64,000 nucleotides of DNA from Acidimicrobiia bacterium (lineage in GTDB: Bacteria; Actinomycetota; Acidimicrobiia; ATN3; PSLF01). Location: contig PSLF01000006.1 of NCBI GenBank assembly GCA_040289475.1, positions 1 to 64,000 on the forward strand, written 5' to 3'. Numbering within the stretch: the first letter of the stretch is position 1; each line of letters begins with the position of its first letter. Below the pieces are notes generated by a model that was not told where the DNA came from, made no database searches, and saw only the letters and a program-made list of their open reading frames with translations. This document shows positions 23,111-55,029 of the stretch, in pieces. The position numbers and the translations under genes are program-made.

Positions 23111-24463
23111 CTAAAGCAGGGGTAGATACCGCTCGATCTCGTACGGTGTCACCTGTGCTTTGTAGGCATCCCACTCTTCTTTTTTGTTTTTGATGAAAAA
23201 CTCGAAAACGTGCTCACCGAGACTCTCAGCAACAAGCTCGCTCTGCTCCATTTGCAGGACCGCTTCGTGGAGGTTTTCAGGAAGAGTTTCGATTCCCAAA
23301 GCCTTGCGTTCTTCATCCGACATCTCGTATATGTTGTCGGAAGCCTCGGGCGGCAACTCGTAGCCATCTTGTATCCCCTTTAGTCCAGCAGCGAGCATCA
23401 CCGAGAAGGCCAGATACGGATTGCACGCCGGATCCGGAGAACGAAACTCAATCCTGCACGAACCTTGCTTTCCCTCTTTGAATACCGGAACACGCACTAG
23501 GGCCGAGCGATTCTGACGCCCCCAACAGATGTAAACAGGGGCTTCGTAACCGGGAACTAGGCGCTTGTACGAGTTGACCCACTGATTGGTGACCGCAGTG
23601 ATTTCTGCTGCATGCCTCAGCAAGCCAGCAATGAATCCCTTTGCAACGTTTGAGAGGCTATACTCGTCGGACACGTCATAGAAGGCGTTCTTATCACCCT
23701 CGAAGAGGGACAAGTGTGTGTGCATCCCACTTCCGTTTACCCCCTCTATTGGCTTTGGCATAAAGGTCGCGTAGTAGCCATGCTCCATCGCCACTTCTTT
23801 GACAGTGAGCCTGTAGGTCATCACCGCATCAGCCATAGTAAGTGCGTCGGTATAGCGAAGGTCTATCTCGTGCTGGCTAGGGGAAACTTCGTGATGTGAA
23901 AAGACCACAGGAATTCCCAACTGTTCCAAAGCGAGAATTGTTTTTCTTCGGAAATCCCTAGCTACGTCGTGGGGTGTCAAGTCGAAGTAGCCGCCGTTGT
24001 CCAGCAACTCTGGCGCCTTCGAGCTTTTGAAGTAAAAAAACTCCAGTTCCGGCCCCACATAGAAAGTGAATCCCATCTCCGCTGCCTTGGCGAGGTTTCG
24101 TCGAAGTACGTACCGAGGATCGCCGACAAAAGGCTCGCCGTCCACCGAGTAGATGTCGCAAAAAATCCGGGCCACCCCGTTCTCTTCGGGCCTCCAGGGC
24201 AGAATCGCGAACGTCGACGGGTCGGGGCGGGCGATCATGTCAGCTTCTTGAACCCGACTGAAACCGTCAATCGCAGACCCGTCAAATGTGATCCCTTCCT
24301 CGAATGCTTTTTCAAGCTCCTCGGGCGTTATGGCAAAACTTTTCAAGAACCCGAGAACGTCGGTAAACCACAAGCGGATGAAACGGATACCCCGCTCCTC
24401 CACCGTGCGAAGGACATACTCTTCCTGGCGATCTATTGGCTCTAAAGCCCCAGCTGTCTCCAT
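23111..24463 (-). CDS. glutamine synthetase type I, GlnA2-like
   Basis: A 450-residue GS-I enzyme condensing glutamate and ammonia with ATP. The Gly-rich substrate loop FDGSAIDGF, metal ligands GPELEFFYF and HHEVSPSQHEIDL, ATP loop FMPKPIEGVNGSGMH and the NRSALVRVP and IEFRSPDPACNPYLA segments are all present. The C-terminus lacks the adenylylation tyrosine context (LYDLPPEE) seen in the second GS, so it should not be controlled that way. GAGGAG lies 7 bases before the ATG. A candidate GlnR box lies 83-98 bases upstream. Relatives named GlnA2 have low or specialised activity in actinobacteria, so a polyamine or other gamma-glutamyl substrate is possible. Confidence 0.9.
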   Translation of the reverse strand: METAGALEPIDRQEEYVLRTVEERGIRFIRLWFTDVLGFLKSFAITPEELEKAFEEGITFDGSAIDGFSRVQEADMIARPDPSTFAILPWRPEENGVARIFCDIYSVDGEPFVGDPRYVLRRNLAKAAEMGFTFYVGPELEFFYFKSSKAPELLDNGGYFDLTPHDVARDFRRKTILALEQLGIPVVFSHHEVSPSQHEIDLRYTDALTMADAVMTYRLTVKEVAMEHGYYATFMPKPIEGVNGSGMHTHLSLFEGDKNAFYDVSDEYSLSNVAKGFIAGLLRHAAEITAVTNQWVNSYKRLVPGYEAPVYICWGRQNRSALVRVPVFKEGKQGSCRIEFRSPDPACNPYLAFSVMLAAGLKGIQDGYELPPEASDNIYEMSDEERKALGIETLPENLHEAVLQMEQSELVAESLGEHVFEFFIKNKKEEWDAYKAQVTPYEIERYLPLL

Positions 24464-25487: not shown

Positions 25488-26903
25488 TTGAATCGCGAAG
25501 AAATACTTCGAATGATTGGGGAAGAGGGAATCGAGATCGTAGACCTTCGATTCTGTGACGTGCCAGGACTCATGCAGCACTTCTCACTTCCTCCAGAGGT
25601 GATCAGGGAGAGCGCCTTCGAAGAAGGCATCGGCTTCGACGGCTCTTCTATTCGGGGATACCAGGAGATCCAAGAGTCGGACATGATTCTCATCCCTGAC
25701 CCGGACTCTGCGTACCTAGACCCATTTACTAAGCACAAAACGCTTGCCATCAACTGCTTCGTCCGGGACCCGGTCACCTCCGAACCCTACACGCGGGACC
25801 CCCGTTACATCGCGCACAAGGCCGAGGCGTACTTACGGAGCTCGGGCATAGCCGATCAGGCCTTCTTCGGGCCGGAGGCCGAGTTCTACATCTTCGACGA
25901 CATCCGCTTCGATCAGAACCAGCACTCAGGTTATTACTACATCGACGCTGTCGAAGGAGTCTGGAACAGCGGCGCAGAGGAGAATCCCAACCTTGGATAC
26001 AAGCCCCGGTACAAAGAGGGGTATTTCCCTGTCCCACCAATGGATCATTACCAGGACCTCCGCTCTGAAATGGTCCTAACGATGAAACAATGTGGGATTG
26101 ATGTCGAGGTACACCACCATGAAGTCGGAACTGCTGGTCAGGCGGAGATCGACATCCGCTTCGACACCCTTCTGCGCACAGCGGACAAGGTCATGCTGTA
26201 CAAGTACATCGTCAAAAACGTGGCCAGACGGCACCAAAAGACTGCAACCTTCATGCCAAAACCTATTTTCGAAGACAACGGGTCAGGTATGCACACCCAC
26301 CAAAGTCTCTGGCGCAACGGCGAAAACTTGTTCTGGGACGAGTCCGGATATGCACAAATATCCGACGTCGCTCGCTGGTACATTGGCGGCCTGCTCGCAC
26401 ACGCGCCGGCAATTCTGGCGTTCGCGGCACCTACAACGAACAGCTATAAGAGGCTTGTTCCAGGCTACGAGGCACCGGTCAACCTCGTATATTCTCAGCG
26501 AAACCGGTCGGCCGCGTGCCGAATCCCCCTATATTCCCGAAATCCCAAGGCGAAGCGAGTCGAGTTTCGGTGCCCGGACCCATCTTGCAACCCATACCTG
26601 GCCTTCTCGGCAATGCTCATGGCCGGGCTAGACGGGATAAACAACAAAATCGAGCCTCCTGACCCCGTTGACAAGGACCTCTACGACCTTCCCCCCGAGG
26701 AGCTTGCGGGCATTCCCCAGGTACCTGGAAGCCTCGGCGAGGCTTTGAAAAGCCTCGAGAACGACCACGACTTCCTGTTGGAAGGGGGGGTGTTTACTCA
26801 GGACCTTATCGATACCTGGATAGAGTTCAAAACAGAACGGGAACTTCAGGAAGTCAACCTCCGACCCCATCCCTGGGAGTTCTACCTCTACTACGACATC
26901 TAG
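25488..26903 (+). CDS. glnA: glutamine synthetase type I, adenylylation-type GlnA
   Basis: A 471-residue GS-I beta-type enzyme, probably the main ammonium-assimilating synthetase. It has [61 protein letters not shown] and [15 protein letters not shown]. The C-terminal [10 protein letters not shown] is the classical adenylylation site with its tyrosine, so GlnE control is expected. TTG 25488 follows AAAGGAGG by 4 bases, and homologues start at the same point. A four-part GlnR-like site lies just upstream and a strong terminator just downstream, so it is probably monocistronic. Confidence 0.95.
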
Positions 26904-36724: not shown

Positions 36725-38051
36725 TCAATCGCTGAGGGAGAAGATCCCCGAAGCTAAACCAGCGGCAAACATGATCCCTGTACCCAACCAAAGCCACAAC
36801 TTGGAGAGCCCGCCCGATACCTTATCGCCCATGAGATCTTTAGAGGACGCTAAAAGGTTGATAAGCAGCATGAGCGGTGGCGCTGCGAAGCCATTTGCTA
36901 CCGCTGACCAATAAAGGGCCTTTACTGCAGGAAGACCGAGGAGGTTCATAGCCACACCCCCCACGACTCCTGCAACTATGATTCCGTAAAACGCAGGGGC
37001 CTCGTGCACTGGGCGAGACAACCCCTCCTCCCAGCCAAGTGCATCGGCCAGTGCATAAGCGGACGATCCGGCTAGTACCGGCACAGCCAGAAGACCTGTC
37101 CCGATTATTCCTAAAGCGAACAGTAGCGAGGAAAAGTTCCCCGCGATAGGACGCAAAGCCTCGGCAGCCTGAGTTGCCGTAGCGATATCGGTCACACCCG
37201 ACTTGTTGAGACTCGCCCCAGCTGCGTAAATGATGCACATGGCGACCAGAACTCCTGCCCCCATGCCGGAGGCTACGTCGGCTCGCATCTCCGAGATTCC
37301 CCGGTACTTTTGGTTTTCTCTGGTAGTCTCAGCGGCATTCTGTTCGCGCTCTTCTTCGACCTCTTCGGCGTTTTGCCAGAAAAAAAGGTAGGGGGAAATC
37401 GTAGTTCCGAAAATCGCCGTAATAGCCACCAGCGAGGCTGTAGTGAAGCCCAGACTCGGCTTCACCGCCGCTTTGACTGCGTCGAGCAGCTCGGACCTCA
37501 CGACTAGCGCGACGCCCACACAGGAAAAGATGGAAAACGCTAGCCATTTCAGGATTTTCTCGTAGGTTCTGTACCGGAACCGCAACTCCAAGAAGAGGAT
37601 CGCTCCGCCGAACAAAATCACTCCCCCCCCAGCGGGGTACAGGTACCTCGAACCCCAGGGACTCTGCCATCGCTCCTATGTCAGCTGCGATGTTGAACGT
37701 GTTAGCAAATACCACGAGGGCTATCGCCCCTAGCAAGACTGGTTTGGAATATCGTTCTCGAACAAGCGTCGAAAGTCCCTTCTGGGTGGCTATAGCCAGC
37801 CTGGCGGTTGCCTCTTGCACAGCCACAGCGAACGGGTAGCAGAGAAGAAGAACCCAAAGATACCGAAACCCGAAAGCGGCACCAACTTGACTGTATGTCC
37901 CGATGCCACTAGGGTCATCGTCCGCGGCGCCGGTGACCATTCCGGGACCTATTTTGCGAAATACCCCAAATCCCCGAAATTTAGGGTGCAGTCCGCTGTG
38001 AACGTTTTTGGAAAAAGACTTGTCAGACACATGCCCTCCGTTCTGGATCAC
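36725..38051 (-). pseudogene. NRAMP-family metal transporter interrupted at a G8 run
   Basis: Together the two overlapping frames encode one NRAMP transporter of about 442 aa with around 11 spans. The first part (38051 down to about 37630) ends ...VPRWGG and the second (from about 37620 to 36725) starts VILFGGAILFLELRFRY. Deleting one G from the G8 tract (C8 on the plus strand, 37623-37630) joins them cleanly. TM1 carries DDDPSGIGTYSQ instead of the canonical DPGN, and TM6 reads FGTTISPYLFFWQ without the metal-binding Met, so metal choice may differ. The start GTG 38051 overlaps the M16 gene stop (GTGA); GTG 38030 after GGAGGG is the alternative. Sequencing error, pseudogene and slippage switching are all possible. 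Confidence 0.8.
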
Positions 38052-44973: not shown

Positions 44974-46317
44974 TTGGACGCTTTTTCCGCCCTTGAATCA
45001 ATTCTGCCTGCATCAGCGAGGAAAACCCCCGAAGGACACCTTGAGGTCGGCGGTGTCGACCTCGTTTCCCTTGCCTCAGAGTTCGGAACCCCGCTCTACG
45101 TCTACGACGCTGACCACCTGAAGCAAATGTGTGCGCGCTACATTACTGCGTTTCAATCTAAGTCTCCCCCCCATGGAAGGGTGGTATACGCCTCCAAAGC
45201 TTTTCCGGCAGTAGCAATGATAAGACTAGCTCTGGGTTCTGGACTCGGCATCGACGTAGCGGGGCCAGGTGAACTTTACGCAGCGCTACAAGCAGGAGCG
45301 GACGGTTCTGAGATCTATTTTCATGGTAACGCCAAGTCCCATCAGGAAATATCGATGGGGATACAAGCAGGCGTAGGCAGATTCGTCGTCGACAACATCC
45401 ATGAGTTGTACAAGATTGAGGAAGTCCTGTCGTCGTGCGAACAACACAGGACGAGCAGACAGCGCCAAAAGGTTTTAATTCGCATAACTCCGGGAATAGA
45501 AGCTCACACACACGAATTCATCAACACCGGCCACCTCGACTCTAAGTTCGGTTTCTACCTCTCCGACGGATCCGCAGAAGCCGCCCTCAAGGAGGCCGCC
45601 TCCTGCCGAAACATCGAGCCAGTTGGAATTCATCTCCATATCGGATCACAAATACTTGAACTCGAACCGTTTGCCGAAGCAGCCCGAGTGGCTGTGGAGT
45701 TTATGGCGACGATAAGGCACAAACTCTCTATCGCACTTGAGGAAGTGAACTTTGGAGGGGGACTGGGAGCCACCTACACGCCCGCCGACGATCCTCCGTC
45801 GGTCGAAGATTACGCAGCATGCCTCAAGAACGCCGTGAAAGAATCGTGTGAAGCTAGCGGTCTTCCTCTCCCAGTGGTGGTAGTAGAGCCCGGACGCTCG
45901 ATCACTGCAAACGCCGGGCTGACTCTCTATACCGTCCAGAGCGTCAAGAGGACTCCAACTGGTCGCACCTACGTAGCCGTCGATGGCGGAATGTCCGACA
46001 ATCTCAGACCGATGTTGTACGGAGCCACCTACCATGCCTTGATTGCTAACAAGCTGAATGAAGACCACAGCCTCCAAGCGACACTCGCTGGGAAACACTG
46101 TGAGTCAGGAGATGTTTTGATAGACCGAGCGTCCATGGCAACTTCGGTGGACGCCGGCGACATCGTCGCCACCCCGGCTACAGGCGCTTACGGCTGGTCG
46201 ATGTCGAGCAACTACAACGGGCAGCCGCGGGCAGCCATTGTATTTGTCGAATCCGGAAAAGCTGAGCTGGTTGTGGAGCGTGAGTCTATCGATGATCTAC
46301 TACGACTCCAGCACTGA
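44974..46317 (+). CDS. lysA: diaminopimelate decarboxylase
   Basis: A 447-residue PLP enzyme making lysine from meso-diaminopimelate. The PLP lysine is Lys75 in VVYASKAF. Other signatures are HGNAKSHQEI, GIHLHIGSQI, FGGGLGATY and EPGRSITANAGLTLY, and the C-terminal CESGDVL carries the catalytic Cys of the dimer partner. TTG 44974 is preceded by CCGGAGGAAACCG. It is 29 bases after argS, so the two are one transcript. Confidence 0.95.
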   Translation: MDAFSALESILPASARKTPEGHLEVGGVDLVSLASEFGTPLYVYDADHLKQMCARYITAFQSKSPPHGRVVYASKAFPAVAMIRLALGSGLGIDVAGPGELYAALQAGADGSEIYFHGNAKSHQEISMGIQAGVGRFVVDNIHELYKIEEVLSSCEQHRTSRQRQKVLIRITPGIEAHTHEFINTGHLDSKFGFYLSDGSAEAALKEAASCRNIEPVGIHLHIGSQILELEPFAEAARVAVEFMATIRHKLSIALEEVNFGGGLGATYTPADDPPSVEDYAACLKNAVKESCEASGLPLPVVVVEPGRSITANAGLTLYTVQSVKRTPTGRTYVAVDGGMSDNLRPMLYGATYHALIANKLNEDHSLQATLAGKHCESGDVLIDRASMATSVDAGDIVATPATGAYGWSMSSNYNGQPRAAIVFVESGKAELVVERESIDDLLRLQH

Positions 46318-46684: not shown

Positions 46685-48022
46685 ATGACCTCCGAAGACG
46701 ACAGACCAGTTGCTAAGGTTATGTCCCCAAAGGTCGATCCGGTGCGGATTGGCTTGCTGGGATGTGGGATTGTTGGATCCGCGGTCTGTCGCCAGCTCCA
46801 GGACAACGGAGACGCCATCGCCAGGCGTACCGGCATGCGACTAGAACTAGGAGCCATAGCGGTGCGCAGTCTCGCAAAGGACAGAGACTGCTCTGTCCCC
46901 AAATCGCTTTTCACTACAGATCCAGCCTCAGTGGTGTCCGATCCTGATATTCACGTCGTCGTCGAGGTAATTGGCGGTATCGAGCCAGCCCGCACACTGA
47001 TCCTTGAAGCATTGCAATCCGGGAAGCCCGTGGTAACGGCTAACAAGGAACTAATTTCGACGCTTGGTTCCGAATTGTTCCGAGCAGCAGCCTCCACAGG
47101 GACAGATCTCCTCTTTGAGGCCGCTGTGGGAGGTGGCATTCCTATCATCCGTCCCCTAAGAGACAGTCTGGCCGGTGAAAGCGTCGCCAGAGTCGTGGGA
47201 ATCTTGAACGGAACTACCAACTTCGTACTAACCCGAATGTGGGAGGAGGGGAGGTCTCTTCACGACGCTGTAGCCGAAGCGCAGGAGCTCGGATATGCCG
47301 AGCGCGACCCGAGTGCTGACATAGAGGGCTACGACGCCGCGGCAAAAACTGCGATCCTTGCTAGCATCGCTTTCGACACCCGGATCACTCAGGGCGACGT
47401 GTACAGAGAAGGTATTTCGCGCATCACCCCCTCCGACATGAAATTCGCGGACAGGCTAGGTTACGTAATAAAGCTTCTTTCGATAGCCGAGCTGTCGGGG
47501 GGTGAAGTGCAAGCCCGAGTTCATCCCAGCATGATTCCAAAGAGCCACCCTCTGGCATCGGTCAGAGATTCTTTCAATGCGATATTTGTCGAGGGCGAAC
47601 ACGTCGGCGAACTCATGTTCTTCGGGCGGGGAGCAGGAGGCGGGCCGACGGCGACTAGCGTCCTCGCCGACATACTCGAAGCAGCCCGACATTTGCGCTT
47701 CGGAGGCCAGGCTCCCTCTGTCGACTCCACTAGAAAGCTTCCTATCCGCAGCTTCGACGAGACGTGCACACAGTACTACCTTCTCCTGGAAGTCGTCGAT
47801 CGGCCTGGTGTCTTGGCCAAGATTGCTTCATGCTTCGGAGCCCACGGAGTATCGATAGCTTCGGTATGGCAAGAAGGACATGGGGAGGCAGCGCAGCTAG
47901 TCATAGTGACACACACAGCTCGAGAGAAAGACTTTCAAGCAACATTGCACGACCTCAAGGCTTTAGACGTGGTCTCTGGCGTGATCTCGGTTCTCAGGGT
48001 CGAAGACGAGGAGGGGGGATGA
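46685..48022 (+). CDS. hom: homoserine dehydrogenase
   Basis: A 445-residue NAD(P)-dependent enzyme reducing aspartate semialdehyde to homoserine. The Rossmann motif IGLLGCGIVGSAV lies near residue 20. VTANKELIS, GGGIPIIRPLRDSL, GILNGTTNFVLTRM and ERDPSADIEGYDAAAK are family signatures. The C-terminal 85 residues form an ACT domain (YYLLLEVVDRPGVLAKIA), so feedback by threonine is expected. No aspartokinase is fused. It is followed by thrC with a 64-base gap. Confidence 0.95.
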   Translation: MTSEDDRPVAKVMSPKVDPVRIGLLGCGIVGSAVCRQLQDNGDAIARRTGMRLELGAIAVRSLAKDRDCSVPKSLFTTDPASVVSDPDIHVVVEVIGGIEPARTLILEALQSGKPVVTANKELISTLGSELFRAAASTGTDLLFEAAVGGGIPIIRPLRDSLAGESVARVVGILNGTTNFVLTRMWEEGRSLHDAVAEAQELGYAERDPSADIEGYDAAAKTAILASIAFDTRITQGDVYREGISRITPSDMKFADRLGYVIKLLSIAELSGGEVQARVHPSMIPKSHPLASVRDSFNAIFVEGEHVGELMFFGRGAGGGPTATSVLADILEAARHLRFGGQAPSVDSTRKLPIRSFDETCTQYYLLLEVVDRPGVLAKIASCFGAHGVSIASVWQEGHGEAAQLVIVTHTAREKDFQATLHDLKALDVVSGVISVLRVEDEEGG

Positions 48023-48086: not shown

Positions 48087-49145
48087 ATGAATGCGACCCC
48101 CTGGAAAGGGGTGATCGAGGCTTACCGGGATTTCCTTCCGGTTGGTAAATCGACCCCAGTGGTGACACTCGGGGAAGGAAACACTCCACTAGTGCATGCC
48201 AAAAAACTTTCCTCGATGGTTTCAGCGGAGGTCTTTCTCAAGCTTGAAGGAGCTAATCCCACCGGATCTTTCAAGGACCGGGGAATGACAATGGCAATAT
48301 CGAAGGCCGCAGAAGAAGGATCCAAAGCCGTGATCTGCGCCAGTACGGGCAACACCTCTGCCTCGGCAGCTGCGTATGCTACACGCGCAGGAATGAGTTC
48401 GGCTGTACTGATTCCGGCAGGCAAGATCGCTCTTGGAAAGCTCGCCCAAGCACTGATCCATGGAGCAAAAGTTCTCGCTATAAAAGGCAATTTCGACGCT
48501 GCATTGGGCATAGCGAAGCAAGTCGCCCACACGTACCCCGTCACGCTGGTCAACTCCGTGAACCCTTTTAGGATCGAGGGACAGAAAACTGGCGCGTTCG
48601 AGGTGTGCGACTGTTTAGGCGATGCACCCGACTACCACTGCATACCGGTGGGAAACGCAGGAAACATTTCCGCTTACTGGAAGGGATACCTCGAGTATGT
48701 AGAAGCAGGCAGGGCGAAGCGGCGCCCTAGGATGTTCGGATTTCAAGCAGCTGGAGCGGCTCCGCTGGTGCTGGGTGAGCCTGTCTCCAATCCCGAGACA
48801 GTTGCGACCGCCATTAGAATAGGCAACCCTGCTTCCTGGAACACCGCCGTAGAAGCTGCCCGAAGCTCTAAGGGTGGTTTCTGGGCAGTCACCGACGAAG
48901 AGATCCTCTCAGCGTACCGCCTTCTCGCTGACACCGAAGGAGTGTTCTGCGAACCTGCATCTGCAGCCGCCGTCGCCGGTTTACTCCAAAGAGCGGACCG
49001 GGGCCATATAGAGAAGGGAAAGTGCGTGGTTTGCATCCTGACTGGAGCAGGCCTCAAGGATCCCGACCGGGCGATCGCCGAGTCGGCTAGGGTAACGAGC
49101 TTAGAACCCAAAGTCGACGCCGTCGTCGAAGCCCTCGGGCTTTGA
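48087..49145 (+). CDS. thrC: threonine synthase
   Basis: A 352-residue PLP enzyme converting O-phosphohomoserine to threonine. The PLP lysine is Lys63 in GSFKDRGM, the phosphate loop is in [13 protein letters not shown], and [15 protein letters not shown] is the conserved Asn loop. It is of the short bacterial/archaeal type. It requires phosphohomoserine, yet no GHMP-type thrB follows it. Instead the apgM-family gene sits in the position of thrB, 42 bases downstream. Confidence 0.95.
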
Positions 49146-49187: not shown

Positions 49188-50375
49188 ATGAAATATCTCT
49201 GCATAATCCCAGACGGTCTGGCAGATGAGCCGTTGGAAGAACTCAACGGGCGCACTCCCATGGAGGCAGCCAGCACTCCCCACATTGACGATTGGGCAGC
49301 GAGAGCCCAGATTGGCCTCGCCCGTAACGTACCCGATGGGCTTAAACCAGGTTCCGACGTGGCAATCATGTCGATCGTAGGCCTGGATCCTCGCAAGCAC
49401 TACTCTGGGAGAGCCCCGATCGAGGCGGCTGCGATGGGAGTACCCCTAGGAGAGGGAGAGGTCGCTTACCGCTGCAACTTCGTGACTGTTGAAAACAGAG
49501 TAATGAAAGACTTCTCCGCTGGACACATAAGTAGCAATGAGGCAGCCGCCCTCATAGAGGATCTCAACCGTTACTTTGACGGAGAAGCCAGGTTTTATGC
49601 GGGCGTCAGTTATAGAAACATCTGCGTACTCGACGACTCGTACTCCGAGGCGGAATGTACGCCCCCGCACGACCTAACTGACAAAGAGGTGTTGCTCCCG
49701 GTGGGCCCGGCTGCGTCCAAGCTCATAGAAATCATGGACAGATCGAGACAGATATTGGCAGAACATCCTATTAACGAGGCTCGCAGAGCAAAAGGTCAGC
49801 TTCCTGCCACACAGATTTGGCTTTGGGGACAAGGGAAAATCCCTAGTGTAGAGCCTTTCGTCAATCGTTATGGCATGTCCGGCGCACTGATTACTGCCGT
49901 AGATCTGGTACGGGGTCTAGGGGTGTTGACAGGACTGGAAGTAGTAGAGGTGCCGGGTGCCACCGGATACTACGACACCAATTACAGAGGAAAAGCCGAG
50001 TATGCCCTCGAATCTCTCGAGCGACACCCCTTCTGTCTGGTACACATAGAAGCCACGGACGAAGCAGGGCACGAGGGATCCTATGCCCGCAAAATCGAGG
50101 TTTACGAAGCCATCGACGAACAGATCGTGGCGACACTACAATCAGGCCTCGAAGGCGAAGAGTACAGGGTGCTCGTCGTGCCGGATCACCCTACACCGGT
50201 GAAAGCCAAAACGCATACCTCTTCGCCGGTTCCGTTTCTGATCTTCGACACGCGGCGCGCCAACCAGGGGGGCGCTGCCTCCGCCACCTTGACGTTTTCC
50301 GAGCGGGGAGCTGCCCAAGATGGTCGATCCCCTATCGAAGGTCACGAGCTCCTCGGGCGTTTGTTCGACAGGTGA
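49188..50375 (+). CDS. ApgM-family phosphoglycerate mutase or alternative homoserine kinase
   Basis: A 395-residue member of the alkaline-phosphatase superfamily related to archaeal cofactor-independent phosphoglycerate mutase. Metal and catalytic residues are visible: IIPDGLAD, GSDVAIMSIVGLDP with the nucleophile Ser, HIEATDEAGHEG and VVPDHPTP. A branch of this family found in hom-thrC operons without thrB is annotated as a proposed homoserine kinase (TIGR02535), and this gene occupies exactly the thrB slot. But the next two genes use 2-phosphoglycerate to make cDPG, so supplying 2-PG from 3-PG is the competing role. Both functions fit the context; sequence inspection alone does not separate them. 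Confidence 0.8.
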   Translation: MKYLCIIPDGLADEPLEELNGRTPMEAASTPHIDDWAARAQIGLARNVPDGLKPGSDVAIMSIVGLDPRKHYSGRAPIEAAAMGVPLGEGEVAYRCNFVTVENRVMKDFSAGHISSNEAAALIEDLNRYFDGEARFYAGVSYRNICVLDDSYSEAECTPPHDLTDKEVLLPVGPAASKLIEIMDRSRQILAEHPINEARRAKGQLPATQIWLWGQGKIPSVEPFVNRYGMSGALITAVDLVRGLGVLTGLEVVEVPGATGYYDTNYRGKAEYALESLERHPFCLVHIEATDEAGHEGSYARKIEVYEAIDEQIVATLQSGLEGEEYRVLVVPDHPTPVKAKTHTSSPVPFLIFDTRRANQGGAASATLTFSERGAAQDGRSPIEGHELLGRLFDR

Positions 50376-50406
50376 AACCTATTGACTTCATATTCTCCCG
50401 ACTCCA

Positions 50407-51792
50407 GTGAACGGTGCTCGACCTAAAAAGATCCTCTTGGTGGTCGACGGCGAGCATTCGCCTTCTGTGGTCGAATCCGCTATTGAAGCTCTGGAAAACG
50501 CTAATTCGAAGGTAGTTGCCCTCGTGTGGGCAGGCGGTACGGAAAAGGCCGATCCAAGCCGCTATCCGCTCGATATCCCCGTAGTAAGCACAGATTCGGT
50601 TGCTGAAAGCCTGGTCTCAGCCATTGCCGAGTACTTCCCCGAAGAAATCGTTGATCTCTCCGACGACCCTATCATCACCCAGGCCAGAAGGGAACAGCTT
50701 GTGGCAGTCGCAGCATCGAAGAAAGTGACTTACGTCGGGCCTGGATACCGTTTCGAAGCCCCAACGAGATTGCGACTTTCTACGCTGCCGACTGTTGCAG
50801 TGATAGGAACTGGCAAGCGAACGGGAAAGACAGCTGTATGTGCTCAACTCGCCCGCCTATTGACCGAAAACGGGGCTCCGCCTCTCATAGTCACTATGGG
50901 CAGAGGAGGACCTAAAAAGCCCGTGTATATCCCTCCGAAAACGATCCCAGCCGATCCCATTGCTCTTATACAAATGGCAAACGAAGGATTGCACGCCGCA
51001 TCCGACTACATAGAAGATGCTCTGTTTACCGGTCTTCCCACTATTGGCGCATGGCGTTGCGGGGGCGGAATCTTAGGAGAGGCCGGACCAAATGCGGTCG
51101 AAGACGCCGTCCGCCTTGCGCAGGAAAAGGCTGCCGAGTCCAAATCCCAGCTGCTGCTCCTTGAGGGCAGCGGCGCTTCCATCCCGCCAGTGCATGCGGA
51201 TGCCACGGTCACAGTAGTCCCTTGGGAAGCCTTCGAGAAAGCCTCCGGTGAACTGCCGCATCCATTCAAAGGTTTCGGCCTCTATCGCCTCCTCATCGCC
51301 GATGCCTTGGTCGTTACAGGCTGTCCTACAGGACTCGACCCGGAGAGAGAACGCGTTCGCATCAGCAAGATCTACGAGTGGAAAACAGACATAGAGGTTG
51401 TCCTTACCGTTTTCGATCTGACACCGGTGGAGCCTATCAAGGGCCGCACGATTGCTCTCGCTACGACTGCCTCTAAAAAAGTCGCCGGCGTTGTTGCAAA
51501 ACAACTCGAAGCCGAGCACGGAGCGCGGGTTGCTGGCGTCTCTGTTAACCTTTCCAGACCCGATCGACTCTCGGAAGACCTTTCCCGGCTCCTTCCGCAA
51601 GTCGATGTATTAGTAACAGAACTAAAAGCGAGAGCCGTGGACGTGGCGGCCCGGCAGGCTGTAGCCTCTGGAGTCGAGGTGATCTTCGCCGAGAATCGTC
51701 CTCGTTCGTTGGTCGAGGGTGACCAATTAGCCAGCCTATCGCGACGCCTTCTGGACCTCGCACGAAAGCGCTTCGAGGCTAGGGAGGAGTAG
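50407..51792 (+). CDS. cpgS: cyclic 2,3-diphosphoglycerate synthetase homologue
   Basis: A 461-residue protein matching, in length and pattern, the cyclic 2,3-diphosphoglycerate synthetase of methanogens, which closes 2,3-diphosphoglycerate into the cyclic anhydride with ATP. The N-terminal domain starts KKILLVVDGEHSPSVVESAI. The P-loop GTGKRTGKTAV lies at about 134-144, followed by VTMGRGGPKKP, LLLLEGSGASIPP and TGCPTGLDPERERVRI. It abuts the 2-phosphoglycerate kinase gene with no gap, so the two enzymes of the pathway are co-translated. Start ATG is 32 bases after the apgM-like gene... the codon used is GTG 50407. Rare in bacteria to my knowledge; the identity rests on remembered family features. 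Confidence 0.82.
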   Translation: MNGARPKKILLVVDGEHSPSVVESAIEALENANSKVVALVWAGGTEKADPSRYPLDIPVVSTDSVAESLVSAIAEYFPEEIVDLSDDPIITQARREQLVAVAASKKVTYVGPGYRFEAPTRLRLSTLPTVAVIGTGKRTGKTAVCAQLARLLTENGAPPLIVTMGRGGPKKPVYIPPKTIPADPIALIQMANEGLHAASDYIEDALFTGLPTIGAWRCGGGILGEAGPNAVEDAVRLAQEKAAESKSQLLLLEGSGASIPPVHADATVTVVPWEAFEKASGELPHPFKGFGLYRLLIADALVVTGCPTGLDPERERVRISKIYEWKTDIEVVLTVFDLTPVEPIKGRTIALATTASKKVAGVVAKQLEAEHGARVAGVSVNLSRPDRLSEDLSRLLPQVDVLVTELKARAVDVAARQAVASGVEVIFAENRPRSLVEGDQLASLSRRLLDLARKRFEAREE

Positions 51793-52866
51793 GTGGATTC
51801 TTCTCGCCGTCCCAACCTCATCGTCGTAACGGCACCCGGAAACGAGCTGCCCTACTCGAGAGGACTCACAGCCACATCCATCATGGGGAGCGGTTTGTCA
51901 CCCGAGAAAGCCTATGCTGTCGCCGAAGCCGTTTATCAAAGACTGCTCGGATCGGGAACCACCAAAATTTCCGCTGACGAGCTAGAGGTCGTTATAGCGG
52001 ACATCCTAGCAGACCTGGCCGGAGAACATTATGCGGAAAACTACCGGCGTTGGACCCGAGTTGGGAGGCTAGACAAGCCGCTTGTCATCCTCATTGGGGG
52101 TGCTACTGGGGTAGGAAAGTCTACGGTTGCTTCGCTGTTGGCATCTCGGCTGGGCATTACTAGAGTGATTCCTACCGACGCAGTACGCGAGGTGATGAGA
52201 GGTATGCTGACCAAGGAGCTTATGCCCACGCTCCATACGTCCAGTTTTACAGCCGAAGCATCCATTACCCAGCCCCTTCCACGCTCAGCTGACAAGGCCA
52301 TCATTGGGTTCAGAGAGCAAGTCCAGGTAGTTGGTGTAGGCATCAATGCTCTTATTCGAAGAGCTGTGATCGAAAAGACCAACGTCATCATTGAAGGTGC
52401 CCACTGCTGTCCCGGATTTATCGAGGTTCCCCGCTCTGAAGACGCAGTTGCCGTCCACCTAGTCATTGCCATAGACAGCGAACGTCTCCACCGTAGCCAC
52501 TTTGCGTTCAGGTCTAGGGAGAGCGGTAGGCGCCCTGCCGAGCACTATCTCCACCACTTCTCGAACATCCGAAAGATTCAAAGATACATCCGGAATCTCG
52601 CTCTTCGATCGGGGGTTGCTGTGATAGAGAGTTATGATGTTGAAGGGACAGTTACTGCGTGCATGGATCTAATCCTCGAAAGGGTCACCCTAGCAGCTAA
52701 AAGCTCTGCGAGTTCGGCCAAGATGAGTGGGGTCCCAGACAGTGGCGAGTCGATGCGTCGTGCAACCCTGCCCCACAGCAAGATCTCAGCCGTTGGAGGA
52801 AGCGAGGGGGAAGCATCCGATAACATGCCTCGCCTCTCTAGCCGTTTGGAACGCCCAGGCGGATAA
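51793..52866 (+). CDS. 2-phosphoglycerate kinase with N-terminal ATP-cone
   Basis: A 357-residue kinase expected to convert 2-phosphoglycerate to 2,3-diphosphoglycerate, the step before cyclisation. An ATP-cone-like domain (VVTAPGNELPYSRGLTATSI, about 10-85) precedes a P-loop kinase domain with GGATGVGKST (102-111), IPTDAVREVMRG and VIIEGAHCCPGF, as in archaeal 2-phosphoglycerate kinases. The ATP-cone suggests allosteric control by nucleotide, linking solute synthesis to energy state (inference). GTG 51793 directly follows the stop of the synthetase gene, with AGGGAGGAG overlapping that gene's end. The C-terminal 50 residues are Ser-rich and look disordered. Confidence 0.82.
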   Translation: MDSSRRPNLIVVTAPGNELPYSRGLTATSIMGSGLSPEKAYAVAEAVYQRLLGSGTTKISADELEVVIADILADLAGEHYAENYRRWTRVGRLDKPLVILIGGATGVGKSTVASLLASRLGITRVIPTDAVREVMRGMLTKELMPTLHTSSFTAEASITQPLPRSADKAIIGFREQVQVVGVGINALIRRAVIEKTNVIIEGAHCCPGFIEVPRSEDAVAVHLVIAIDSERLHRSHFAFRSRESGRRPAEHYLHHFSNIRKIQRYIRNLALRSGVAVIESYDVEGTVTACMDLILERVTLAAKSSASSAKMSGVPDSGESMRRATLPHSKISAVGGSEGEASDNMPRLSSRLERPGG

Positions 52867-52899: not shown

Positions 52900-53559
52900 A
52901 TGAAACTTTTTCTAGATACGGCAAGCATAGACGAGATAAAAGAGGCTGCAGCCACCGGGGTCCTGAGCGGCGTCACTACAAACCCCACGCTTGCATCGAG
53001 AGAGAAAATGGAGTTCAGATCAATGATCTCCGAGATCTGCTCCATAGTGAGCGGCCCGGTTTCTGCAGAGTGTGTAGGAAAGACCCGCGATGAGATGCTC
53101 GAGGAAGCACGGTCCCTCGCCGAAATTGCGGAAAACGTGGTCGTAAAAATGCCCATGGGGGAAGAGGGTGTAGCGGCGTGCGCCAAGGCGTCGGCAGAGG
53201 GGATCAAGGTAAACATGACCTTGGTCTTCTCACCCAACCAAGCGATTCTTGCCGCAGAGGCTGGGGCGTACTTTTGCAGTGCGTTTCTTGGCAGAATAGA
53301 TGACATTGGATGGCATGGAATGGATGTCCTGGCAGAAATTGTTGAGATCTATGCCAACCAGGGATATACTACGAAGGTTCTCGCAGCCAGTCTCAGGCAT
53401 CCTCTCCACGTAACAGAAGCGGCCAGGTTGGGCGCGGACATCGCCACAATGCCTTTCGAAGTTTTCAAGAAGATGTTCAAGCATCCTCTCACAGACATTG
53501 GAGCGGAGAGGTTCTTGCAAGATTGGGAGAAGTATCAGCGGGCTATAACAGGAGCCTGA
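52900..53559 (+). CDS. tal: short transaldolase / fructose-6-phosphate aldolase-like
   Basis: A 219-residue (beta/alpha)8 enzyme of the short TalC/MipB class. MKLFLDTASIDEIKE and GVTTNPTLASRE open the barrel, the Schiff-base lysine is Lys83 in VVVKMPMG, and the C-terminal half holds GRIDDIGWHGM and the short tail. As a transaldolase it shifts dihydroxyacetone units between sugar phosphates in the pentose phosphate pathway. GGAGGTCGAG precedes the ATG. It follows the cDPG genes by 33 bases, so a shared transcript is likely; both draw on triose and glycerate phosphates. Confidence 0.93.
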   Translation: MKLFLDTASIDEIKEAAATGVLSGVTTNPTLASREKMEFRSMISEICSIVSGPVSAECVGKTRDEMLEEARSLAEIAENVVVKMPMGEEGVAACAKASAEGIKVNMTLVFSPNQAILAAEAGAYFCSAFLGRIDDIGWHGMDVLAEIVEIYANQGYTTKVLAASLRHPLHVTEAARLGADIATMPFEVFKKMFKHPLTDIGAERFLQDWEKYQRAITGA

Positions 53560-53694: not shown

Positions 53695-55029
53695 ATGACT
53701 CAAACTGACACCGATACCGTCGAAGAACAGGCAGCGGCCGAACGCGAATCCGATGAAGCAATCTCATCGGGGGAGAGCCTTGAAGAGGAAGGCTTTTCCG
53801 AGACTAGTGGCGAGCGTCGGCCCACCACCCAAGCTCGCAAAAGTAGGGGAAAGCAAAAGCGAAACCAGGAGCGTGGCGCCCAGAGAGAGGTTAGGGACGA
53901 GCCCGCAGCGACAGTATCCGGGGTTCTAGACATCTTGCCCGAAGGATATGGATTTTTACGAGCCACCGGATATCTTCCCGGCGACAAGGACGTCTACGTC
54001 TCGCTGAGTCAGATTCGCAGGTTTCAGTTGCGAAGGGGGGACTTCGTTCAGGGAGCGGTTAGACCTCCCAAAGATGCGGAGAAGTACCCCGCATTGCTGC
54101 GGATAGACTCTATAAACGAGAGAGATCCGGAGGAAGCTCGGCAGCGGCCTCGCTTCGAGGACCTCACCCCCCTGTTTCCAACCGAGCGCCTCACCCTGGA
54201 GCTAAAAGGATCCAAAAACGACATTACCCAGCGGATTATTGATCTCGTGGCTCCAATAGGGAAGGGTCAGCGAGGGCTGATCGTGTCTCCTCCTAAAGCC
54301 GGAAAGACGACGATCATGAAACTGATCGCACAGTCGATCACCATTAACAATCCAGAGGTTTATCTCATGGTCCTTCTCGTCGACGAGCGACCCGAAGAGG
54401 TCACAGATATGGTGAGGTCAGTGGAGGGAGAGGTCGTCTCTTCTACCTTCGACCGGCCAGTCGAGGAGCACACCCAGGTGGCCGAGTTGGCACTGGAAAG
54501 AGCCAAGCGCTTGGTCGAGCAGGGACGCGACGTCGTGATAATTCTCGACGGCATTACCCGACTAGCAAGGGCATACAACCTGGCTACGCCTGCTTCCGGA
54601 AGAGTACTGTCTGGAGGCGTCGACTCAACAGCCCTGTACCCGCCTAAAAAGTTCTTCGGGGCAGCGCGCAACATTGAAGAGGGAGGTTCGCTGACTATAC
54701 TTGCCACCGCCCTCATCGAAACGGGCTCGAAAATGGACGAGGTAATCTTCGAAGAGTTCAAGGGTACCGGCAATATGGAGCTGAGGCTCGACCGCAAGCT
54801 CGCTGACAAGCGTATTTTCCCAGCCATAGACATAGAGGGGTCGGGAACTCGGCACGAGGAGTTGTTATTCGACAAGAACGAGCTGGCTCAGGTGTGGAAG
54901 CTAAGGCGGGTATTGGCTGGTTTGGACTCTGGGGCCGCCCTAGAGCTGTTGATCGACAAGATCAAAGCCACAGCGTCTAACGCTGACTTTCTGGCGGAGA
55001 TCGCCAAGTCAACCTTGCCTGCTGCATGA
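53695..55029 (+). CDS. rho: transcription termination factor Rho
   Basis: A 444-residue hexameric RNA helicase ending transcription at rut sites. A charged, poorly ordered N-terminal segment (1-65) is followed by the RNA-binding cold-shock-like domain ([20 protein letters not shown]). The ATPase domain has PPKAGKTT (P-loop), [13 protein letters not shown] and [13 protein letters not shown]. The N-terminal insert is much shorter than in mycobacteria or Micrococcus. Its place after the threonine genes is the conserved actinobacterial order. Confidence 0.96.

Follow-up and report, generated by a model that had tools for sequence, protein, structure and literature searches.

Candidate genes for cyclic 2,3-diphosphoglycerate synthesis in an Acidimicrobiia bacterium

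We analyzed 64,000 nucleotides of DNA from an Acidimicrobiia bacterium (positions 1 to 64,000 of contig PSLF01000006.1, from the 24-contig GenBank assembly GCA_040289475.1), hereafter the window. Two adjacent genes at 50407-52866 probably encode the two enzymes of cyclic 2,3-diphosphoglycerate (cDPG) synthesis, namely 2-phosphoglycerate kinase (2PGK) and cDPG synthetase (cDPGS). Judging from the sequences, we put the probability of this assignment at about 0.75. The pathway is known from archaea and had not been described in bacteria. 2PGK would convert 2-phosphoglycerate (2-PG) and ATP into 2,3-diphosphoglycerate (2,3-DPG). cDPGS would use a second ATP to form a 2-pyrophosphate intermediate, and an attack by the 3-phosphate would then close the ring and release phosphate, the mechanism proposed for the Methanothermus fervidus enzyme (PMC10690619). 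The 2-PG would come from general glycolysis or gluconeogenesis, and not from the activity of a neighboring ApgM-family gene. The pair and its junction are arranged as follows.

50407..51792, + strand: homologue of cyclic 2,3-diphosphoglycerate synthetase (cDPGS), 461 amino acids (aa), GTG start; identified by PDB matches and active-site residues
51793..52866, + strand: 2-phosphoglycerate kinase (2PGK) family protein, 357 aa; identified by PRK04220 (300 bits), AlphaFold, and Foldseek
51777..51795, + strand: cDPGS/2PGK junction, GGGAGGAG, then the TAG stop of cDPGS, then the GTG start of 2PGK

The first-pass annotation had described three contiguous rightward genes, the ApgM-family gene (49188-50375, 395 aa) followed by this pair, with the last two abutting without a gap. 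The coordinates and the junction agree with that description, and the family matches given below lie well outside what chance would produce. The GTG start of 2PGK directly follows the TAG stop of cDPGS and GGGAGGAG lies slightly upstream, an arrangement in which translational coupling of the two genes is likely.

In a phmmer search against the PDB, residues 6-435 of the 461-residue cDPGS aligned to residues 4-434 of the M. fervidus enzyme (8ork, E ~9e-74). The second M. fervidus entry, 8oru, scored equally, 9sxb followed (E 9e-67), and no other PDB entry reached E < 1. The homology is full-length and includes the N-terminal domain particular to cDPGS, which confirms the earlier identification. 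The M. fervidus crystal structure places K145, R146, K149, and K406, together with E45 and K46 of the other subunit, around 2,3-DPG and ADP (PMC10690619). All six are found in the window protein, as K137, R138, K141, K407, E46, and K47, respectively, along with the Walker A motif. The first-pass annotation had named a better match to unrelated P-loop families and a lack of the methanogen active-site residues as possible objections, and neither was borne out. An unrelated P-loop family was rejected on the scores of DUF1611, AAA_26, CbiA, and KamB, which all fell below their cut-offs and covered the P-loop region or scattered stretches only.

The same residues are conserved throughout the family. 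Two conserved peptide patterns were run against 84,980 species genomes and led to 419 confirmed cDPGS relatives, from which 80 were kept as the homologue set. E45, K46, K145, R146, and K149 are present in 80/80 of these sequences and K406 in all 79 that cover the position. The set includes Actinomycetota (among them a Streptomyces), Methanobacteriaceae, haloarchaea, Thermoplasmata, Methanonatronarchaeia, Cloacimonadota, Aminicenantes, Mcinerneyibacteriota, and Neomarinimicrobiota.

The downstream protein scored best among NCBIfam models with PRK04220 (300 bits, E 2e-89) and PRK12337 (294.5 bits). The next unrelated model, PRK12338, reached 148 bits, half the PRK04220 score. This ranking favors the proposed 2PGK family membership, though neither leading score reaches its curated cut-off (343 and 603, respectively). 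The protein comprises an N-terminal ATP-cone-like domain (~11-90), a P-loop kinase domain (~95-311), and a disordered tail (317-357). Structure prediction, a check suggested by the first-pass annotation, supported a P-loop kinase: the AlphaFold model (mean predicted local distance difference test score, 85.7) shows a confident N-terminal domain followed by the kinase domain, and Foldseek matched it best to nucleoside-monophosphate, gluconate, and shikimate kinases. In the P-loop, GATGVGKS, the residues G, G, K, and S are invariant in the family alignment. The ATP-cone named earlier stands in part. The domain is confidently modeled, and it can be regarded as a family feature because its conserved residues are common to 42/42 aligned 2PGK members, but the Pfam ATP-cone model scored below its cut-off (18.4-21.1 versus 25.8 bits).

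Relatives of the kinase also occur apart from the synthetase. Another Acidimicrobiia genome (G002) encodes a full-length 2PGK relative at C1:2937732-2938622 (E 9e-62) and no cDPGS, and 2PGK-family matches were also found in the control genomes of Thermus composti and Deinobacterium. Because of these occurrences, the 2,3-DPG made by the 2PGK family may have another use.

Both genes are present in the window's genome, and their distributions coincide widely. In our Acidimicrobiia draw, cDPGS was found in 9/148 genomes; eight of the nine carry a full-length 2PGK, and in the ninth it is cut at a contig edge. Among the 139 genomes lacking cDPGS, one has 2PGK. A larger draw of 397 genomes, spaced over the groups of the phylum Actinomycetota, contained 200 genomes with cDPGS and 199 with 2PGK; of these, 195 have both, 5 cDPGS only, and 4 2PGK only (Fisher p ~1e-101). 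Since the draw was spaced in this way, the half of genomes with cDPGS is not a census figure. One actinobacterial family (f47) has a divergent 2PGK (E ~1e-70).

The gene order is similarly conserved. In 41/42 Actinomycetota loci with sequence, 2PGK starts downstream at ≤500 base pairs (bp) from where the cDPGS match ends, and the same spacing holds for 11/12 loci of haloarchaea, Thermoplasmata, Cloacimonadota, Aminicenantes, and others; in the loci of these four named groups, the pair occurs without threonine genes. None of the 19 Methanobacteriaceae loci with sequence has 2PGK within 500 bp downstream of cDPGS. Many Actinomycetota lineages share the order hom-thrC-(thrB or apgM)-cDPGS-2PGK-(talC)-rho, and two other Acidimicrobiia genomes carry the pair beside ftsK and pyruvate dehydrogenase genes instead. 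In one Acidimicrobiia genome (L094, 7001-13300), an insertion of ~4 kb separates cDPGS from 2PGK. The locus of Streptomyces sp. WAC 01529 (L093), read for context, showed no clear functional partner besides 2PGK.

In a tree of 89 synthetases, whose root is not known, a 99/99 branch has all Actinomycetota cDPGS on one side, separate from the archaeal sequences. This branch speaks against a recent transfer from methanogens, a reading that we rejected, and for cDPGS being old in actinobacteria. The pair would represent an old, co-inherited unit in Actinomycetota, placed between the threonine genes and rho.

A third gene is linked to the pair. Clustering of neighboring frames revealed a metallophosphoesterase directly upstream of cDPGS in 19 Actinomycetota loci. 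In Thermoplasmata, Cloacimonadota, Aminicenantes, and Mcinerneyibacterium, it lies downstream, after a CBS-domain protein; in the first three of these groups, it takes a two-domain form with the CBS-domain protein. Examples are L100:6177-6983, L056:6128-6979, and L037:9666-11153, with 23 further loci. Across the 397 Actinomycetota genomes, it was present in 193/200 with cDPGS and in 5/197 of the others, counted at E < 1e-60 so that weaker matches to general phosphoesterases were left out. One copy (E 3.7e-106) is present in the window's genome, located outside the window. In the f47 genomes, mostly several copies (up to 5) were observed. By profile and fold, the closest relatives of the phosphoesterase are Rv0805 and GpdQ. 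Its residues D14, H16, D47, N78, H147, H184, and H186 (first row numbering) are invariant in 21 sequences, and we take these positions to be the metal ligands of the superfamily.

We propose this phosphoesterase as a candidate cDPG hydrolase or 2,3-DPG phosphatase, because a hydrolase activity is known from Methanothermobacter to which, to our knowledge, no gene has been assigned. That activity was reported to be membrane-bound (PMC1224877). As the usual companion of the pair, the phosphoesterase would hydrolyze cDPG or 2,3-DPG, and synthesis together with hydrolysis would form a turnover cycle fit for a solute, phosphate, or energy reserve. The degradation step thereby gains a specific candidate that can be tested. 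More tentatively, and with somewhat less than even confidence, the full cycle may be old and widespread in Actinomycetota, including mesophilic soil lineages, with 2PGK and cDPGS making cDPG and a dedicated metallophosphoesterase degrading it. In that case, cDPG would be a reserve of general use, for phosphate, carbon, or stress, rather than the heat protectant of archaea.

Several points weigh against the assignment of the pair to cDPG synthesis. The 2PGK score of 300 bits is under the curated cut-off of 343. The branch leading to the window cDPGS is long (1.32 changes per column) and lies beside two Acidimicrobiia members (support 98/92), and a substrate shift is possible because of this length. 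The Fisher p-values overstate independence, since they ignore shared ancestry; the gene order is nonetheless kept. In the literature, cDPG is described as exclusively archaeal and limited to hyperthermophilic methanogens (PMC10690619). Our literature search found no biochemical or metabolite evidence for any bacterium and no report of cDPG in bacteria besides an engineered product in Thermus, in a search that covered subscription journals poorly, so that the observation may have been published before. The name may also be present in database annotations already.

The first two of these points would also fit a paralogous pathway, in which a related kinase and cyclase make another cyclic pyrophosphate or a phosphorylated hydroxy-acid, perhaps linked to threonine, as would the identity of just 35-36% to the archaeal synthetases and the location of the pair beside hom-thrC-thrB/apgM. 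We consider this pathway unlikely. All residues that contact 2,3-DPG in the M. fervidus enzyme are invariant, and no threonine genes accompany the pair in Thermoplasmata, haloarchaea, Cloacimonadota, and Aminicenantes. In the two Acidimicrobiia genomes mentioned above, it lies next to ftsK and the pyruvate dehydrogenase genes. It is very improbable that the genes are relics, or that the organism produces only traces of cDPG and makes no meaningful use of it. The patchy occurrence in Acidimicrobiia (9/148 genomes) would suit such a case, but the frames are intact, the catalytic residues invariant, the gene order kept, and cDPGS and 2PGK are present or absent jointly.

The genes surrounding the pair are listed below.

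44974..46317, + strand: diaminopimelate decarboxylase, lysA; TIGR01048, 456 bits (cut-off 297.9)
46685..48022, + strand: homoserine dehydrogenase, hom; PRK06349, 544 bits (cut-off 205)
48087..49145, + strand: threonine synthase, thrC; Pfam PALP, 239 bits; aligned as thrC across the conserved loci
49188..50375, + strand: ApgM-superfamily protein of the TIGR02535 group; most likely a homoserine kinase, outside cDPG synthesis
52900..53559, + strand: fructose-6-phosphate aldolase/transaldolase, TalC family; TIGR00875, 277.5 bits (cut-off 245.95)
53695..55029, + strand: transcription terminator Rho; by synteny, the downstream cluster boundary conserved in Actinomycetota

The ApgM gene directly follows lysA, hom, and thrC. 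Its product scored above the cut-offs of both TIGR02535, the "proposed homoserine kinase" (498.5 bits, cut-off 446.3), and PRK04200, the cofactor-independent phosphoglycerate mutase (505.5 bits, cut-off 426). We found no ThrB above cut-off in the window's genome, where the sequences of three weak GHMP matches pointed to IspE, a sugar kinase, and GalK, and likewise no GpmI above cut-off. The genome encodes a second ApgM-superfamily protein at G000:C1:268936-270039, which matched the PRK04135 phosphoglycerate mutase (476.5 bits, cut-off 468); the window gene is thus not the sole or best candidate for the phosphoglycerate mutase. We compared the stretch from thrC to cDPGS in 37 named Actinomycetota loci that have both genes: 21 contain a GHMP-type thrB, 12 contain apgM, 4 contain neither, and none contains both, with the thrB identity confirmed by TIGR00191 in three examples. 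Loci with ThrB still keep cDPGS-2PGK. As ThrB and ApgM alternate in one slot and never occur together, they replace each other, and the gene at 49188-50375 therefore most likely encodes the homoserine kinase in the hom-thrC operon. From the gene order, the alternation lends strong support to the proposed homoserine kinase function of TIGR02535.

A three-gene module, in which ApgM is a phosphoglycerate mutase that supplies 2-PG to the kinase, as the first-pass annotation had assumed, is hardly credible: its position directly upstream of the pair and the PRK04200 name are outweighed by the TIGR02535 score, the lack of a recognizable ThrB, the separate PRK04135 mutase, and the slot alternation, and also by genetics in Bacteroides thetaiotaomicron that tie TIGR02535 to a threonine need, despite failed complementation of an Escherichia coli thrB mutant (PMC7311316). 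The "complete pathway" of three genes is accordingly reduced to a two-gene synthesis pair, with the phosphoesterase outside the window, and not ApgM, as the third linked gene. This removes an annotation trap, since the neighboring "phosphoglycerate mutase" almost certainly belongs to the threonine pathway. The transaldolase, which had been placed in the same carbon-phosphate neighborhood, is indeed a conserved neighbor (24 Actinomycetota loci), but nothing ties it functionally to the pair.

Elsewhere in the window, an NRAMP-like metal-ion transporter appears to be split over two overlapping frames near C and A runs (36725-38051), possibly through a frameshift or a sequencing error. Two glutamine synthetase-like genes (23111-24463 and 25488-26903) lie on opposite strands, ~1 kb apart.

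There is demand for cDPG as an extremolyte. Its synthesis by bacteria, if real, would alter the view of where it occurs and of its supposed link to heat, as well as which hosts and enzymes are chosen to produce it, and mesophilic bacterial enzymes would offer new biocatalysts. Methanobrevibacter smithii has been reported to accumulate cDPG, and the link to heat is therefore already weakened.

Among known systems, the cDPG pathway of M. fervidus and its relatives is the closest. Both enzymes are shared, cDPGS aligns end to end with equal active-site residues, and the kinase family is the same. The window system differs in being bacterial, in its abutting genes, in its place between the threonine genes and rho, and in a sequence identity of 35-36%. 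The bacterial pair is often accompanied by the metallophosphoesterase, whereas 0/19 Methanobacteriaceae loci have 2PGK beside cDPGS. Genome-based predictions of cDPGS outside methanogens have been made for Ca. Nitrosocaldus cavascurensis and the ancestor of ammonia-oxidizing archaea (PMC5797428, PMC7554672). Those cases concern archaea, a thermophilic ammonia oxidizer among them, and the passages on this point mention cDPGS and not the kinase. The phosphoesterase resembles the class III phosphodiesterases Rv0805 and GpdQ, its closest solved relatives, in the retained metal-binding positions, and is distinguished from them by an identity of only ~20% and by its own invariant motif, GRER...DAGD. 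The window ApgM, in turn, resembles the TIGR02535 kinase of Bacteroides (BT2402): it scores above the family cut-off and lies in a threonine operon in a genome with ThrB nowhere else, in a family whose own activity is debated and unproven (PMC7311316).

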